DNA of 6,613 nt from Oscillospiraceae bacterium. GTDB taxonomy: Bacteria; Bacillota; Clostridia; Oscillospirales; Oscillospiraceae. The stretch spans positions 1 to 6,613 of the forward strand of contig JAITGW010000164.1 of assembly GCA_031280325.1 (NCBI GenBank). The letters run 5' to 3'. Positions 1 through 6,613 of the stretch are shown one piece after another (the stretch's first letter is position 1; each line of letters starts with the position of its first letter). A program made the position numbers and the translations under genes. The notes below the pieces were generated by a model. That model saw nothing but the letters and a program-made list of their open reading frames with translations, did no database searches and was not told the DNA's origin.

Positions 1-154
1 GTCGGAGCTGTCGGCGTATATCACGGGTCTGTGCATGTATGTTGGCGGCGGGATAGGATATGTATACTCTCACCCGCAGAGCTTTTTGCTCGGCAAAACA
101 CCGACCGGAAATCAGCAGACAGCGGAAACGAAGTCAGAAAATGTGAAATTATGA
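1..154 (+). CDS. C-terminal fragment of a probable membrane protein (transporter?)
   Basis: The window opens inside a gene whose reading frame (first full codon at base 2) ends at a TGA at 152-154. The visible 50 residues begin with a hydrophobic, glycine-rich stretch (LSAYITGLCMYVGGGIGYVY) that could be the last transmembrane helix. A polar tail rich in T, N, Q, E and K follows, as at the cytoplasmic C-terminus of many secondary transporters. Codon use (G/C-rich third positions) resembles the downstream genes. The stop lies 18 bases before the GRE start, so the two are probably co-transcribed, and an importer of the GRE substrate would make sense here. The family (for example MFS or another symporter) cannot be assigned from this piece. 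Frame 1 is also open across the region, but it encodes a charged, less protein-like sequence, so frame 2 is preferred. Confidence 0.5.
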   Translation, partial: SELSAYITGLCMYVGGGIGYVYSHPQSFLLGKTPTGNQQTAETKSENVKL

Positions 155-156
155 AT

Positions 157-163
157 GGTGAGG
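157..163 (+). promoter_or_regulatory. Ribosome binding site for the GTG-started GRE gene
   Basis: GGTGAGG lies 9 bases upstream of the GTG at 173. It supports that GTG as the start: no in-frame ATG exists nearby, and the ATG at 151 is in a different frame that stops after 12 codons. Confidence 0.5.
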
Positions 164-172
164 TAAGCGAAA

Positions 173-2683
173 GTGACCAGTATAAGTAAAGAAGAAATTA
201 AATCGGTGCAGGTGCTTACGCCGCGTTTGCAAAAGCTGAAAAAAGAATGGGAGGACGCCGAGCCGCAGGTATACGTTGACGATTCGCTCCTGTTCACACA
301 GTCGTGGAAGGAAACCGAGGGGCTGCCGGTAGATGTGCGCTGGGCAAAGGCGCTTGAGAAGCGCCTTTTGGAGTGTCCGCTGCTGATTCGTGACGGTGAG
401 CTTATCGTCGGCTCGCTGTCAAAATTCATCCGCGGCAACGGAACGCTGTGCGCCATGAAGCCGCATGAGATCCTGACGATGGCGGAGAGCGGGAAATTCG
501 ACCGCAAGACGAGTGACATTTCTTCAACGCGCATTGACCCCGCAGATTTAGAGGCGCTGCGCGCCGACGCGCAGTATTGGATCGAGAATATGCCGAAGGT
601 ATCGAGCGTCAACGCCGCCGTCGAGCTTGACATGGGCTGCGAGGTGTTCGATTTGCTGTTTGACCGCGGCATGGTCTTTGAGGGGCGCGGCGTGCGCTAT
701 AAAATGGACAGAGGGCTGTTCCAAAACTATTCTGCATACGGCGGCGGAGTGGCGCAGGTGTCTGTCAAGTGCATTGCGAACGGACTGAATTATATCATTG
801 ACCTGTGCAGCGCGGAGCGTGAGCGTATGCTGCGCGAGGGGGACGAGAATTCCCGCGGCACGGCGCAGTTCATGCGCAAATACTGGCTGCTCAAGGCATG
901 TATCATCTCGTGCGAGGCGTTCATCAAATACGCGCGGAGGCACGCTGATTTGGCGCGCGAAATGGCAAAGACGGAGACGCGAACCGCGCGCCGGGAGGAG
1001 CTTTTGCGCATTGCCCGCGCGTGTGAGCGCGTGCCGGCGGAGCCTCCGCGGGACTTTTTCGAGGCTGTTCAGTGCGTGCGGCTGTACCATCTTGTATGCT
1101 GGAAGGAATCCTCCGACCGTCCGGAGGTTCCGATCGGACGGCTTGACCAGCTCCTCTACCCATATTATGAAAAGGACGTGACGGAGGGAAAGATTACGGC
1201 GCAGGCCGCCGCGGAGCTGCTTGGCGCACTGTGGCTGAAGATCCGCGAGTGCGAGAACCTTGTGACAATTCCGAGAGAGCAGCGAGCGGCGCCCGGGTCG
1301 CTCCTGCCGAACATCACGCTGTGCGGCACAGACGAGAACGGAAACGATTTGACAAACGACATTTCGTGGCTTGTGCTGGAGGCCATGGCGCAGATAAAGC
1401 TGTCGGAGCCGGCGATATACGTGCGCTATAATCCCAACATGGACAGTGAATTTCTTCTCCACGCGCTGGAGTGCAACCGTGAGTTCGGCGGCGGAAACCC
1501 GGCTTTTCTAAACGACGTTTTGGGTACGCAGCGTTATCTTGACAGGGGAGTGCCGCTCTCTGACGCGTGCAACTGGAACGCGTCCGGCTGCCTTGGATAT
1601 CACCTTGACAGCCTCGAGCACATGGGTGGAGGACACAATATCTCGCAGCTCAAGGTTTTAGAGCTTGCGCTGAACGACGGATTTGACAAGCGCACCGGAA
1701 AGCAGCTCGGCCCGCACACCGGGGATGTGCGCGCGTTTACGGGCTTCGAGCAGGTGTTGGACGCGTATTGCGCGCAGCTTGATTATTTCACGAAAATGCT
1801 GAGACGGTTCAAAATGATCTCTTGGGGGACTGAAATCGCTGACGGTCCGATGAGCGGGCTGCGCGTCGCGATGCAGTATGAGGACTGTATTCCCGCGGGG
1901 CTTGCCTCGCGCGAGGGCGGCGCGCGTTATCCGGAGGGACGCGCCGCATGGCTCGGATCCCGCGGGCTTGTGGATCTGGCGGACACGATGACGGCGATCA
2001 AAAAGCTGGTGTTTGATGAGAAAAAAACGACGATGGCGGAGCTTCTGGACGCCTGTGACAGGAACTGGCAGGGATATGAAAACCTGCGGAGTCTCTGCCT
2101 GGGCGCGCCGAAATACGGTAACGACGACGATTATGCCGACGAGGTGTATGACGAGCTGTCAACCCGGGTTCCGGAGATAATGCAGCAGGATGTCGATCCG
2201 CTTACGGGCAAGAAGCCGATGCTTTTTATCGGCGCCGCCGCGGGGCACGTCGGAATCGGAAAGGCGATCGGCGCGATGCCGAACGGACGCATGGCGGGAA
2301 CGCCGACGTGCGACGCCGCCTGCTCTGTATCGCCGGGGTGCGACGTGAACGGGCCGACGGCTGCGATTAATTCAGCGACAAACGGCGAATATTCCAGAGA
2401 ATACGCGGGCTACGCGATGAATATGAAATTCTCCAAGGCGCTGCTGAACACGCCGGAAAAGCTGCGGCAATTGGCGTTTCTCGTGCGCGTGTTCATGAAG
2501 CGCGGCGGCTGGCACATACAATTCAACATACACTCGCGCGAGGAGCTGCTCGACGCGCGGGCGCACCCCGAGGATCATCGCAATCTCCTTGTCCGCGTCG
2601 GAGGCTACAGCGCGTATTTCATCGATCTTCCGCCCGGACTCCAGGCGGAAATTGTCAACCGCACAATGCACGAGCTGATATAG
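173..2683 (+). CDS. Glycyl radical enzyme, PFL-like family, unknown substrate
   Basis: This is an 836-residue cytoplasmic glycyl radical enzyme of usual length for the non-PFL branch (about 790-900). The N-terminal PFL-like barrel is recognisable from TESYKETEG-like and DGELIVG-like segments (here FTQSWKETEGLP, IRDGELIVGS) to GRLDQLLYPYY and KYGNDDDYADEV. The C-terminal glycyl radical domain ends in RVGGYSAYF, with Gly811 the predicted radical site 25 residues from the C-terminus. The predicted thiyl cysteine is Cys473 in NASGCLGYH. Known eliminating members (glycerol/diol dehydratase, choline TMA-lyase, isethionate lyase, hydroxyproline dehydratase) have a Cys-x-Glu motif at this place; here the +2 residue is Gly475. 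The usual ADGG-SP segment near the active site is replaced by CDAACSVSPG (713-722). It is therefore not PFL (no Cys-Cys pair) and not a standard dehydratase; the reaction is unknown. The start is GTG. There is no N-terminal extension suggesting microcompartment targeting, and no shell genes are in view. The activase follows 15 bases downstream. Confidence 0.93.
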   Translation: MTSISKEEIKSVQVLTPRLQKLKKEWEDAEPQVYVDDSLLFTQSWKETEGLPVDVRWAKALEKRLLECPLLIRDGELIVGSLSKFIRGNGTLCAMKPHEILTMAESGKFDRKTSDISSTRIDPADLEALRADAQYWIENMPKVSSVNAAVELDMGCEVFDLLFDRGMVFEGRGVRYKMDRGLFQNYSAYGGGVAQVSVKCIANGLNYIIDLCSAERERMLREGDENSRGTAQFMRKYWLLKACIISCEAFIKYARRHADLAREMAKTETRTARREELLRIARACERVPAEPPRDFFEAVQCVRLYHLVCWKESSDRPEVPIGRLDQLLYPYYEKDVTEGKITAQAAAELLGALWLKIRECENLVTIPREQRAAPGSLLPNITLCGTDENGNDLTNDISWLVLEAMAQIKLSEPAIYVRYNPNMDSEFLLHALECNREFGGGNPAFLNDVLGTQRYLDRGVPLSDACNWNASGCLGYHLDSLEHMGGGHNISQLKVLELALNDGFDKRTGKQLGPHTGDVRAFTGFEQVLDAYCAQLDYFTKMLRRFKMISWGTEIADGPMSGLRVAMQYEDCIPAGLASREGGARYPEGRAAWLGSRGLVDLADTMTAIKKLVFDEKKTTMAELLDACDRNWQGYENLRSLCLGAPKYGNDDDYADEVYDELSTRVPEIMQQDVDPLTGKKPMLFIGAAAGHVGIGKAIGAMPNGRMAGTPTCDAACSVSPGCDVNGPTAAINSATNGEYSREYAGYAMNMKFSKALLNTPEKLRQLAFLVRVFMKRGGWHIQFNIHSREELLDARAHPEDHRNLLVRVGGYSAYFIDLPPGLQAEIVNRTMHELI

Positions 2684-2698
2684 GCGGCTTGTTTATAT

Positions 2699-3679
2699 AT
2701 GGCAAAAGAAATTTTGGCGGCGGCGTGGGACGGCGTTTTGCCGAAAGAAACACTGCGGATGGAGGATTTGCCCCAACCGCGCGGACGTGTATTCAATATA
2801 CAGCGGTACAGTCTGGACGACGGTCCGGGCATACGCACGACGGTATTCTTAAAAGGCTGTCAGCTGCGGTGTCCGTGGTGCTCTAATCCGGAATCGCAGA
2901 GTTTTGAGCCGCAGATACTCTATCGCTATACCGCGTGTAAAATGTGCGGCGCATGCATTGCCGTGTGTCCGCAGGGAGCTGTAACCATGGGCGCGGATGG
3001 TATTGATATTGACCGCGCGCGATGCGCCGTCTGCGGAGAGTGCGCGGCCGCGTGCGTCCAAGGCGCGCTGAAGATTTCCGGCGAGGACATGACCGTCGAG
3101 CAGGTATTCAAAGTTATCCGAAGGGACGCCGCATATTATGAGGAGTCCGGCGGAGGAGTGACCTGCTCCGGAGGGGAGATACTCGCGCAGGCGGATTTTG
3201 TGCGGGAGCTTTTCAAAAAATGTCGGGAAGCCGGATATCATACCTGTGCGGATACGTCGGGCTTCGGCACGGCGGAGGCAATGGAAAAAGTGCTGAAATT
3301 TGCGGATTTGGTGTACTTTGACCTCAAGCATGCGGACGACGGCTGGCATCTGGCTAACCTCGCCGTACCAAGGGATGTGATAATCCGCAATCTGCGCCTG
3401 TGCGCTTTGCGCGGAGTTCCCGTTGTGATACGCGTTCCGCTCGTTCCGGGGCAAAATGATTCCGAGGAAAACCTGACTGCCATGGCAGAGCTTGCAAAAT
3501 CGATCGTACCGCGTGCGCAGGTCAATATTCTGCCGTATCACAAGTATGGCGAGAGCAAGTATAGGTCTGTCGGTATGGAATACACCTTATCGCACTTGCG
3601 CGAGAACACGCCGGAGGAGCTTGAGCGCGCCGCGGCGGTGTTCGTGGAGTGCGGACTTGAATGTACGATCAGCAAATAG
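2699..3679 (+). CDS. Glycyl radical enzyme activating enzyme (radical SAM)
   Basis: This 326-residue radical-SAM protein would use SAM and a 4Fe-4S cluster to abstract a hydrogen from Gly811 of the upstream GRE. The N-terminal signature VFNIQRYSLDDGPGIRTT (31-48) is typical of PFL-activase family proteins. It is followed by the cluster motif CQLRCPWC (Cys54, Cys58, Cys61; CX3CX2C). An inserted ferredoxin-like domain holds two CX2CX2CX3C motifs (Cys80/83/86/90 and Cys109/112/115/119), as in activases of the non-PFL GREs. SGGE (157-160) is the SAM-binding segment, and DLKHAD, RVPLVPGQND and the NILPYHKYG region complete the barrel. About 30 residues precede the conserved start of the family. 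A shorter start at the ATG at 2759 (Met21) is possible, but the ATG at 2699 has a weak GGCGG about 11 bases upstream and continues the operon spacing. The dedicated partner is almost certainly the adjacent GRE. Confidence 0.95.
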   Translation: MAKEILAAAWDGVLPKETLRMEDLPQPRGRVFNIQRYSLDDGPGIRTTVFLKGCQLRCPWCSNPESQSFEPQILYRYTACKMCGACIAVCPQGAVTMGADGIDIDRARCAVCGECAAACVQGALKISGEDMTVEQVFKVIRRDAAYYEESGGGVTCSGGEILAQADFVRELFKKCREAGYHTCADTSGFGTAEAMEKVLKFADLVYFDLKHADDGWHLANLAVPRDVIIRNLRLCALRGVPVVIRVPLVPGQNDSEENLTAMAELAKSIVPRAQVNILPYHKYGESKYRSVGMEYTLSHLRENTPEELERAAAVFVECGLECTISK

Positions 3680-3683
3680 AGAC

Positions 3684-3690
3684 GGAGGAG
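3684..3690 (+). promoter_or_regulatory. Strong ribosome binding site fixing the first OYE start
   Basis: GGAGGAG ends 5 bases before the ATG at 3696 (GGAGG core spacing 7). This fixes the start there: the reading frame stays open upstream to 3492, inside the activase gene, but the extra residues are arginine- and serine-rich out-of-frame sequence. Confidence 0.85.
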
Positions 3691-3695
3691 TTATT

Positions 3696-5657
3696 ATGGC
3701 GTCATTTAACCGTTATAAGTATTTATTCAGCCCGCTGGCGGTCGGGAAGCGGACGTTCAAATCACGAGTGGAATTCGCGCCCATGGTCTGCGATATGACG
3801 GACGGCGGGGGCGAGGCGACGGAGGGATATGTCGATTTTGTCGAGCGCCAGGCGGAGAGCGGCGTTGCGATCATCCACCTTGGCGCGACGCCGGTGGACG
3901 ACGTCGCGGCGGCCGACTATCGCTCGGAGCTTTGCGTCACGGATGAGAGCAAGATCGCGCACCTTGTTCGCCTTGTCGAGGCGGCGCACAGGCACGGCGC
4001 GCTTTTGTCGGTGGAGCTTGTACATGCCGGACGCGGCGCCGATCAGGAGCTTTTGAACACTGACAGGGCGCTTGCGCCGTCGAATTTCACGATACCCGGC
4101 CGCGCGAGGTATATAAAGGAAATGGATCAGCACGATATTGAGCAGGTTATCGACGCTTATGTTGACTGTGCGGCGCGCGTGAAGCGCTGCGGCTTTGACG
4201 GCGTGCTCATTCACGGCGCGCATGGCAATCTTATCGCGCAGTTTCTCTCGCCCATGACGAATCACCGCACCGACATGTACGGCGGAAGCCTTGAGAACCG
4301 CGCGCGCTTTCCTCTTATGCTGTTGTCCGCCGTGCGTGAAGCCGTCGGCGATGATTTTATTATTGAGCTGCGTATTTCCGGAGACGAAATTGTTGACGAG
4401 GGTATGCGCACGGGCGAGGTTATTGAGTTTTTGAAGCTTGCGCAGGAGTATATTGACCTTGTAAACGTTTCGGCGGGGCTTATTGTCGAAACGCGCGGGC
4501 AGTTTTATTCAATGCCGCCATATTTCCGGCCGCGCGGCAGCAATGTGCCTTTCGCGCGGGAAATCAAGGCTTGCGGCGATATAAAAATCCCGATAAGCGT
4601 CGTGGGCGGGATAATGACGGCAGAAATGGCGGAGGAGATCATCGCCGACGGCAGCGCCGATATGGTCGCGATGGCGCGCGCGCTGCTTGCCGATCCCGAC
4701 ATGCTGCGAAACGCCTATCGCGGAGCCGAGGAGCGCTCGCGCCCCTGTCTGCGTTGCTGGAGCTGTGCGGAAGGATACGGCACGCACATACATTGCGCCG
4801 TGAATCCGCAGCTTGCGCGAACGTATCGCTACAGCCGCCCATGGCGCGCTGAGGTTCCGAAAAAAGTCGTCGTCGTGGGCGGAGGCGTCGCCGGCTGTCA
4901 GGCCGCGATGACCCTTACAAAGCGCGGACACGCTGTAGTGCTGTTTGAGAAGAACGCGGCGCTTGGCGGATTGCTGCGCGACGTTAATAAGCTTCCGTTT
5001 AAGGACGATATGCTCCGCTATACGCAGTGGCTGGAGCGTGAAACGATGAGCTGCGGCGCGGATATACGGCTTGGAGCCGCGGCTGACGCGCAGAGCGTAA
5101 TGGCGGAGAATCCTGACGCGATAATCGTCGCGGTTGGCTCTGTTCCGGGGCGCCCGGCCATACCGGGAATTGATGCCGAAAACGTATTCAATGTGCTGGA
5201 AATCGACTCCGGACGGGTAAAAATTGCACCGGGCGCGCGCGTCGTAGTCTGCGGCGGAGGACTTTCGGGGTGCGAGTCCGCGCTTGCGCTCGCAATGGAG
5301 GGGTGCGCTGTGACTGTTGTGGACATGATTCCGGTCGCGGACTTTGCGAATGGGGCGCACGATTTGACGCGCAATATGCTGCTGCATCTGCTGCGTGAAA
5401 ACGGCGTTGAGCTGATTGGAGAGCATATTGTGCGCAGCATAGGCGACGGACGCGTCGCTGTCGAGGGGCGCGACTGGAAATTCAAGGCGCTCGATGCGGA
5501 CGTCGTCGTCGAAGCGTTTGGAATGACGTCAAACGCCGAGATGCGCGATCAATTTTTCGAGCTTATTCCGGACGTGTACTATGTCGGGGATTGTGCGGAG
5601 CCCAAGAATATTCTCCGCGCGAATTTCACGGCGTATGACCGCGCGCTTAACATTTAA
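3696..5657 (+). CDS. OYE-type FMN/Fe-S/FAD oxidoreductase (dienoyl-CoA reductase/BaiCD/TMADH-like)
   Basis: This 653-residue protein matches the length of 2,4-dienoyl-CoA reductase, BaiCD/BaiH and trimethylamine dehydrogenase. An N-terminal FMN TIM barrel (about 1-345) carries LFSPLAVGKRTFKSRVEFAPM, VELVHAGR (His110), IHGAHGNLIAQFLSP (His173, His176) and YGGSLENRARF. The 4Fe-4S motif is CLRCWSC...C (Cys351, 354, 357, 367). A nucleotide-binding half follows, with GGGVAG (395-400) for FAD or ADP, a second GGGLSG (520-525) for NAD(P)H, and a C-terminal VYYVGDCAEP that closes the FAD site. Electrons would pass between NAD(P)H, FAD, Fe-S and FMN. The family reduces activated C=C bonds (enoyl-CoAs, bile-acid enones, other enones) or oxidatively demethylates amines; the substrate here is unknown. 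The oddities are Asn178 in place of the usual proton-donor Tyr (HGAHGYL) and a short last Fe-S spacing. The gene begins 16 bases after the activase, so its substrate may be the GRE product. Confidence 0.92.
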   Translation: MASFNRYKYLFSPLAVGKRTFKSRVEFAPMVCDMTDGGGEATEGYVDFVERQAESGVAIIHLGATPVDDVAAADYRSELCVTDESKIAHLVRLVEAAHRHGALLSVELVHAGRGADQELLNTDRALAPSNFTIPGRARYIKEMDQHDIEQVIDAYVDCAARVKRCGFDGVLIHGAHGNLIAQFLSPMTNHRTDMYGGSLENRARFPLMLLSAVREAVGDDFIIELRISGDEIVDEGMRTGEVIEFLKLAQEYIDLVNVSAGLIVETRGQFYSMPPYFRPRGSNVPFAREIKACGDIKIPISVVGGIMTAEMAEEIIADGSADMVAMARALLADPDMLRNAYRGAEERSRPCLRCWSCAEGYGTHIHCAVNPQLARTYRYSRPWRAEVPKKVVVVGGGVAGCQAAMTLTKRGHAVVLFEKNAALGGLLRDVNKLPFKDDMLRYTQWLERETMSCGADIRLGAAADAQSVMAENPDAIIVAVGSVPGRPAIPGIDAENVFNVLEIDSGRVKIAPGARVVVCGGGLSGCESALALAMEGCAVTVVDMIPVADFANGAHDLTRNMLLHLLRENGVELIGEHIVRSIGDGRVAVEGRDWKFKALDADVVVEAFGMTSNAEMRDQFFELIPDVYYVGDCAEPKNILRANFTAYDRALNI

Positions 5658-5666
5658 CGGCCGACG

Positions 5667-6206
5667 GTGGAAGAATTTTACAATTCGGCGGCGTGGAAAG
5701 AGTTTTCCCGCCGCAATGGGGGACATCCGGGAGGACTTGGAGCGACGCGGGAGCTTATCGAGGCGGCAAGCCTCGTGCCGGGCGCGCGCATCCTTGACCT
5801 GTGCTGCGGCGGAGGGGAGAGCGTCGCGCTGCTTGCGGAGCTTGGGTATGAGGCGTTTGGGCTTGCGGGTGCGGAGGAATTATCGGGCATTGCGCCGCAG
5901 TCGTTCGACGCCGTGATGTGCGAATGCTCGATCTCGCTGCTTGACAGCGGCGCGGCGCTGTTAGAGTTAGACCGCATACTTAAACCGCGCGGCGCGCTTT
6001 TGTTATCGGACGTGTATGACGGAACACCGCCGGTTTTCCTCGGGTTTTCGGAGATATATTTTAAGGACAAGCGGCGGGAGCTTATTGATTACGCGGCGCA
6101 ATGGCTTTGGGAGACGGGGGAAAGCTTTCCGCTGTGCGCAGACGTTAAAACAGTGTCATACTACCACTGGGTTGGATTGAAAGGAGATACATATGGCGGG
6201 CTTTGA
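5667..6206 (+). CDS. Short class I SAM-dependent methyltransferase-like protein
   Basis: This 179-residue protein has the front half of a Rossmann methyltransferase: HPGGLGATRELIEAA, then motif I ILDLCCGGGESVALL (42-56). After a very short connection comes FDAVMCECSISLL (80-92) and then LKPRGALLLSDVY (105-117). The HPGG...CEC...LLLSDVY combination recalls a family of small anaerobe methyltransferases typified, from memory, by Desulfovibrio DVU_1556; this link is tentative. Only 14 residues separate the second beta strand (AFGL, 63-66) from the FDAV strand, so the usual acidic residue after strand 2 and the following helix and strand are missing. It may bind SAM poorly or have another role. 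The start is GTG with no convincing ribosome binding site, 9 bases after the upstream stop and in the same frame, suggesting translational coupling. The end overlaps the next gene by 14 bases. The substrate is unknown. Confidence 0.75.
   Translation: MEEFYNSAAWKEFSRRNGGHPGGLGATRELIEAASLVPGARILDLCCGGGESVALLAELGYEAFGLAGAEELSGIAPQSFDAVMCECSISLLDSGAALLELDRILKPRGALLLSDVYDGTPPVFLGFSEIYFKDKRRELIDYAAQWLWETGESFPLCADVKTVSYYHWVGLKGDTYGGL
6181..6186 (+). promoter_or_regulatory. Ribosome binding site for the second OYE gene
   Basis: AAGGAG ends 6 bases before the ATG at 6193 and lies inside the 3' end of the methyltransferase gene. It makes the overlapping start credible. Confidence 0.85.
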
Positions 6207-6613
6207 GCATAAATATCCACACTTATTCAGCCAAATCACACTTGGGAACACGGTTTTCCGCAACAGAATTTTCGCTTCGCCCACTGGCTGGCAGAACTAT
6301 GAGGCGGGGCCAATTTTCCCGGAGGCAGCGGCGGCGTATTACGGGCGCAAGGCGCAGGGCGGCGCGGCAAGCGTCGCCGTCGGCGAGCTGTATGTTGACG
6401 CAAAGCGTGGGCTCGGCGGACCGATGAGCGCGCAGCTTGACGACCCCGGGATTACCGGGTCACTCACGCGGCTCACCGACGCGATCACGCGAAACGGCGC
6501 CGTTGCCGTGGCGGAACTTCAGCACGCGGGTATGTTCGCGCAAGAGTCCCAGCGGCGCGGAAACCAGATTTATGGTCCGGTGGACATGGAGGTTCACGGT
6601 GAAATCGCCCACG
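6193..6613 (+). CDS. Second OYE-type NADH:flavin oxidoreductase, N-terminal part
   Basis: The window contains the first 140 codons, and the gene runs off the end. The protein begins with HKYPHLFSQITLGNTVFRNRIFASP, the first strand of an OYE-type FMN barrel. AAYYGRKAQGGAASVAVGE (48-65) matches the family's YYERRAKGG region, and VAELQHAGM (106-114) matches the QLxHAGR segment, where His111 would sit near the flavin. It is clearly a paralogue of the upstream OYE-type enzyme but diverged (SPTGWQNY against APMVCDMT after the first strand). It could be a partner with different stereochemistry or substrate, in the way BaiCD and BaiH form a pair, or a later step in the same pathway. Whether it carries the Fe-S and FAD halves cannot be seen. 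It overlaps the methyltransferase gene by 14 bases. Confidence 0.88.
   Translation, partial: MAGFEHKYPHLFSQITLGNTVFRNRIFASPTGWQNYEAGPIFPEAAAAYYGRKAQGGAASVAVGELYVDAKRGLGGPMSAQLDDPGITGSLTRLTDAITRNGAVAVAELQHAGMFAQESQRRGNQIYGPVDMEVHGEIAH

Follow-up and report, generated by a model that had tools for sequence, protein, structure and literature searches.

Glycyl radical enzymes (GREs) catalyse some of the hardest anaerobic reactions. In a stretch of 6,613 nt from an Oscillospiraceae bacterium (GCA_031280325.1, contig JAITGW010000164.1, positions 1–6,613, forward strand; the whole stretch is called the window below), a gene was found for a GRE whose cysteine loop reads GCLG and thus lacks the Cys-x-Glu (CXE) motif of GRE eliminases, which raises the question of what reaction this enzyme catalyses and on which substrate. 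It is likely that the GRE and a fused B12-dependent mutase found in the same genomes act in one previously undescribed breakdown pathway. We tentatively propose that a distinct GRE subfamily and a variant B12 mutase are joined there in one catabolic route for a free dicarboxylic acid.

Cysteine loop and placement of the window GRE

The sequence features expected of a GRE were present in the window, namely the PFL-like and Gly_radical domains, a Cys loop, a Gly loop and an adjoining radical SAM activase. A sequence-only reading of the window had taken CNWNASGCLGYH (residues 466–477) as the thiyl loop, with Cys473 predicted to be catalytic and Gly instead of Glu two residues downstream (+2). Translation from the GTG at position 173 gave this same loop, and HMMER alignments with solved GREs (8iof, 1r8w, 8id1, 9f3w and 5i2a) set Cys473 on the catalytic Cys and Gly475 on the Glu of Cys-Val-Glu, in agreement with both assignments. 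For conservation, 120 homologues were listed and the 115 full-length ones (59–100% identity) were used, five of fewer than 780 aa having been dropped. C473, L474, W468 and G811 were each invariant (115/115), Y476 and H477 were each found in 114 and G475 in 113, with Ala in the remaining 2; the motif is therefore not a chance feature. The same reading had considered that another Cys followed by Glu at +2, for example Cys466, might occupy the thiyl site. No such Cys was placed there by the alignment, and Cys466, present in just 94 of the 115 and not the aligned catalytic Cys, was ruled out. The Gly loop reads RVGGYS, with Gly810 in 114 relatives and Ala at this position in most other GREs aligned. 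R316, R368, R371 and R564 were also invariant, and Arg564 occurred in 15/15 mutase-linked GREs versus 0/27 others, which carry Ser, Asn or Met.

Passages of PMC8473560 and PMC7077986 describe the CXE Glu as a conserved feature of GRE eliminases and report that E436Q in HypD or E470Q in IslA abolished activity. Compared with the B12-independent glycerol/1,2-propanediol dehydratases (1r8w and 5i2a), the window GRE is 30–31% identical, has Gly in place of the Glu at +2 and differs at aligned pocket residues; for the His that eliminases have near the CXE Glu (His160 in HypD), Gln195 aligned with His164 (our own count) of glycerol dehydratase, where the HypD proxies have Val in another alignment. 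With HypD (trans-4-hydroxyproline dehydratase) it shares the GRE fold and the SGC sequence ending at the catalytic Cys (the proxies read TSGC or ASGC), but not CXE, at 28.4–31.3% identity to the proxies. The HPAD proxies read GCLE and are 25.5–27.2% identical. An AlphaFold model of the GRE (pLDDT 82.7) had its best structural matches among diol dehydratases.

None of the 12 NCBIfam GRE equivalog models listed passed its cut-off on the window GRE, the scores being 419.2 of 1100 bits for HypD, 309.9 of 1150 bits for HPAD and 390.4 of 1100 bits for indoleacetate decarboxylase. A tree was built from 44 sampled GREs with reference proxies for CutC, HypD, HPAD and PFL and without X-succinate synthase sequences; the window GRE was 20.8–31.3% identical to these proxies and grouped with none of them. 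Clustering with a characterised GRE, which the sequence-only reading had named as speaking against novelty, was thus not seen with respect to these four, and the separate subfamily with conserved Gly475 that it had suggested is supported by the tree together with the conservation. With two GRE-like sequences (L076 and L078) and two PFL proxies set aside, the sequences without Glu at +2 (26 of the 44 sampled) formed a single clade (support 0.997); with these included, they did not. The GCL[GA] clade had a support of 0.998. Loops reading GCLA, GCAG, GCVY, GCVD and GCVQ were found in other GREs, so that the feature is not unique to the window GRE and, judged from these sequences, the absence of Glu at +2 is a mark of a wider GRE branch. 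We know of no function assigned to the sampled branch lacking CXE. A plasmid search for GRE references gave 27.3–35.3% identity among the 40 of 140 matches listed, with no X-succinate synthase recognised, and a PDB search gave no usable X-succinate synthase sequence.

Several relatives of the window GRE were noticed in the course of this sampling. Sister GREs with a GCAGS loop, also having Gly at +2, were 36–40% identical (L070–L073), and a paralogous GCLG/GCLA clade was 44–46% identical (L069, L122 in genome G043 and L123 in genome G101); ten proteins near the G043 and G101 paralogues belonged to housekeeping families or had no Pfam match. In L076 (G063:C52) and L078 (G166:C133), placed near CutC, Thr replaces the radical glycine (RVATYS) and the Cys loop reads GCAT or GCAS; a relationship to the aminoacyl radical enzymes named in a passage of PMC12358834 is conceivable. 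The window genome (G000; 1.1 Mb, 64% complete) had seven PF02901 matches over six contigs, and one further GRE among them reads GCVY, likewise without Glu at +2.

A fused B12 mutase in the same genomes

The partner protein matches the E and S parts of methylaspartate mutase in one fused chain (PF06368 and PF02310), and scored 382.7 bits on the glutamate mutase E model (cut-off 390.1). In a family sample of 200 genomes, with thresholds of at least 72% identity for the GRE and at least 60% for the fused mutase, the GRE was found in 16 genomes and the mutase in those same 16 and in 0/184 others; the match in G101 was a fragment, and nine additional genomes had only a 35–39% relative spanning the E part. 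The mutase of the window genome lies on contig C218 (858–2792). From this exact co-occurrence it is likely that the two radical enzymes share one pathway. In a phylum sample (398 genomes, own included), the GRE was found at 60% identity or more in 4 genomes, 3 of which had the mutase at 63–72%, and 76 other genomes had just relatives at 31–41%. Distances between GREs and between mutases, compared over 28 genomes or loci, were correlated (r = 0.71), with none of 10,000 permutations giving as high a value. None of the open-licence papers listed dealt, judging from title and the opening of the abstract, with a GRE next to a glutamate-mutase-like enzyme.

The fused mutase is similar over its full length to the E and S subunits of GlmES, and the gene of GlmL, which accompanies that system, adjoins it here as well. 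In glutamate mutase, arginines bind both carboxylates and Glu171 binds the amino group. The residue comparison against glutamate mutase (6h9e and 1cb7) covered 120 of 1057 homologues, 2 deep relatives and seven canonical loci. All 120 homologues and both deep relatives retained the counterparts of Arg66, Arg100 and Arg149, whereas Glu171 was replaced by Pro, Tyr177 by Trp and His150 by Ser or Cys in 122/122; the canonical mutases keep E, Y and H at these positions in 7/7. Since the arginines are kept and the other three residues replaced, the substrate of the fused mutase is likely to be a dicarboxylate without an amino group. By its predicted reaction, the protein may be likened to the 2-methyleneglutarate mutase of nicotinate fermentation, in which a free non-amino dicarboxylate is rearranged with B12.

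Gene neighbourhoods and the remaining genes of the window

Among 45 GRE loci, a frequent order was GRE, activase, a fused E+S mutase of about 640 aa and GlmL/MutL, often behind one or two Fe-alcohol dehydrogenases. GRE and mutase genes were both present in 19 of the 45. They were separated by a single gene in 17 loci, this being the activase in 16 and an Fe-alcohol dehydrogenase in L039, and lay farther apart in L033 and L015; L051 contained the S part of the mutase alone within its 22.5 kb. The shared loci carry seven phylum-level labels (Bacillota, Bacteroides, Spirochaetes, Deltaproteobacteria, Synergistaceae, Acidobacteria and Actinobacteria), some of which may be wrong because most records are metagenome bins. 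Many of the remaining loci were short contigs, and L010, L047 and the window have other genes adjoining the GRE. In the cultivated type strain Sporobacter termitidis DSM 10068 (L025), two Fe-alcohol dehydrogenases, GRE, activase, mutase and GlmL follow one another consecutively.

Two other gene families were considered as partners and rejected. Five distinct loci (L033, L037, L044, L131 and L132) have MmgE/PrpD near the GRE, but it was above cut-off in 6/16 GRE genomes versus 9/45 GRE-negative genomes, hand-picked and mostly the more complete (7/16 versus 11/45 at E 0.001); the Mo-hydroxylase PF20256 was uninformative, as it occurred in 130/200 family genomes. In the deep-branching genomes G527 (L131 and L134 on contig C4) and G288 (L132 and L135 on contig C1), GRE, mutase, PrpD and caprolactamase/acetophenone-carboxylase-like subunits were clustered, and the same stretches contained Mo-hydroxylase, aldehyde:ferredoxin oxidoreductase and TRAP genes. 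Nicotinate fermentation is a CoA-free N-heterocycle route, and by analogy these clusters recall such routes. Contig C1 of G288 also encodes a 4-hydroxyphenylacetate decarboxylase homologue above the NCBIfam cut-off (G288:C1:5098–7797); roughly 36 kb separate it from the mutase. It was also noticed that in L028 and L051 NuoF-like, NuoG/GltD-like and FAD enoate-reductase-like proteins adjoin the GRE, which perhaps form an NADH-linked reductase.

The features of the window are collected in Table 1. The 653-aa oxidoreductase scored 399.7 bits on the BaiCD model (cut-off 825), and its gene was present in some related loci. For the methyltransferase-like open reading frame (ORF), which shares its last 14 bases with the beginning of the gene that follows, no counterpart was found by protein clustering of related loci.

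Table 1. Features of the window, with positions counted from its first nucleotide
Feature	Position	Strand	Support
GRE, 836 aa, GTG start	173..2683	+	PF02901 494.8 bits, PF01228 94.6 bits, both above cut-off
Cys loop CNWNASGCLGYH, residues 466–477	1568..1603	+	alignment to solved GREs; conservation in 115 relatives
Codon of Cys473, predicted thiyl residue	1589..1591	+	
Codon of Gly475 (+2)	1595..1597	+	
Codon of Arg564, mark of mutase-linked GRE clade	1862..1864	+	115/115 relatives
Codon of Gly811, predicted glycyl radical site in RVGGYS	2603..2605	+	Gly in 115/115 relatives
Radical SAM GRE activase, 326 aa	2699..3679	+	TIGR02494 340.2 bits (cut-off 174.35)
Old-yellow-enzyme/BaiCD-like flavin and Fe-S oxidoreductase, 653 aa	3696..5657	+	PF00724, PF07992
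Short methyltransferase-like ORF, 179 aa	5667..6206	+	PF08241 29.7 bits
Second old-yellow-enzyme family protein, start part, truncated at contig end	6193..6612	+	PF00724 45.6 bits

Candidate reactions of the GRE and its mutase partner

The absence of the CXE Glu suggests that the GRE may perform no 1,2-elimination; another residue could act as base. It is conceivable, with a probability somewhat short of even, that the enzyme makes or breaks a C–C bond in a carboxylate substrate, its reaction being coupled to that of the mutase. The adjacent activase would generate a radical on Gly811 that moves to Cys473, and the thiyl radical so formed would abstract a hydrogen atom from a substrate that bears a carboxylate and that may be bound by conserved arginines, for example R316 and R564. 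Without Glu at +2, a C–C bond would then be made or broken instead of the CXE-type 1,2-elimination, and a dicarboxylate that the GRE either produces or consumes would be converted by the mutase between its branched and linear forms.

Several points weigh against this proposal. Absent Glu475 is the single basis for the C–C reaction, and substrate and activity of the GRE are predictions from sequence and gene context. The pocket-loop blocks (311–320, 361–380 and 471–490) were modelled at pLDDT 53–65, and in view of this low confidence no pocket contact is claimed. GCLG was also found in the paralogous clade (L122), whose genome G043 has no mutase match, and the GRE of G527 (L131) reads GCLA rather than GCLG. 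No mutase adjoins the window GRE, the gene being on a separate contig of a genome 64% complete. For G592, of the phylum sample, no mutase match was found although the genome is listed as 98% complete, its GRE lying on a contig of 3,000 bases; moreover, the 16 family genomes are mutually related and hence not independent. The last two points, together with the Fe-alcohol and aldehyde dehydrogenase genes near many loci, would also be expected if GRE and mutase were neighbours through inheritance only, the GRE acting in an alcohol/aldehyde route of its own. This explanation is improbable, as the shared loci occur under seven phylum-level labels with differing flanks and the mutase follows the GRE exactly in the family sample.

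The main rival to a C–C reaction is that the GRE remains an eliminase in which another residue (e.g. His477, Glu482 or His483) replaces the CXE Glu; it would probably dehydrate a hydroxylated dicarboxylate and feed the unsaturated diacid to the mutase. Nicotinate fermentation, which passes through 2-(hydroxymethyl)glutarate, 2-methyleneglutarate and 3-methylitaconate, offers the analogy. We regard this as rather doubtful in view of the described conservation of the Glu and the inactive E436Q and E470Q variants, and also since PrpD and Mo-hydroxylase showed no link with the module across the family genomes sampled. A divergent X-succinate synthase, for which fumarate or a comparable enoate would be the acceptor of a substrate radical before the mutase rearranges the substituted succinate, is quite unlikely. 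BSS and MASS share the GRE fold and, according to a passage of PMC12358834, have a fumarate-binding Arg at Cys+15, whereas residue 488 at this position was His in 80, Phe in 24, Tyr in 7, Ile in 2 and Ser in 1, which accounts for 114 of the 115 relatives, with no Arg in the window GRE. An ORF scan of 61 loci revealed no gene for a BSS-like small Cys-rich subunit within 2.5 kb, the two ORFs picked up being the start of the activase (L012) and a minus-strand ORF (L008), and the BssD model gave the activase 239.8 bits (cut-off 496.45); lacking the Arg and nearby accessory subunit genes, this identity was rejected. A PFL-like lyase, whose thiyl radical would attack a carbonyl carbon, is very improbable and was likewise rejected, because the Cys loop has no Cys-Cys pair; identity to the PFL proxies was 20.8–21.1%.

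Should the proposed C–C reaction on a free diacid hold, it would represent a new reaction class for GREs and would extend the GlmES fold to a new substrate. B12 and glycyl radical enzymes, which have been described as mutual substitutes, were found here together in the same genomes and loci, and would then be partners. As the mutase has a known reaction type and an altered substrate pocket, the question is narrowed to free diacids that can be rearranged by a carbon-skeleton mutase, and the complete gene row in the cultivated S. termitidis DSM 10068 makes the pathway idea directly testable. There may exist, as a possibility that we put forward with reserve, a widespread anaerobic pathway in which one free dicarboxylate passes serially through two radical enzymes, a base-free C–C GRE and a non-amino-diacid mutase.
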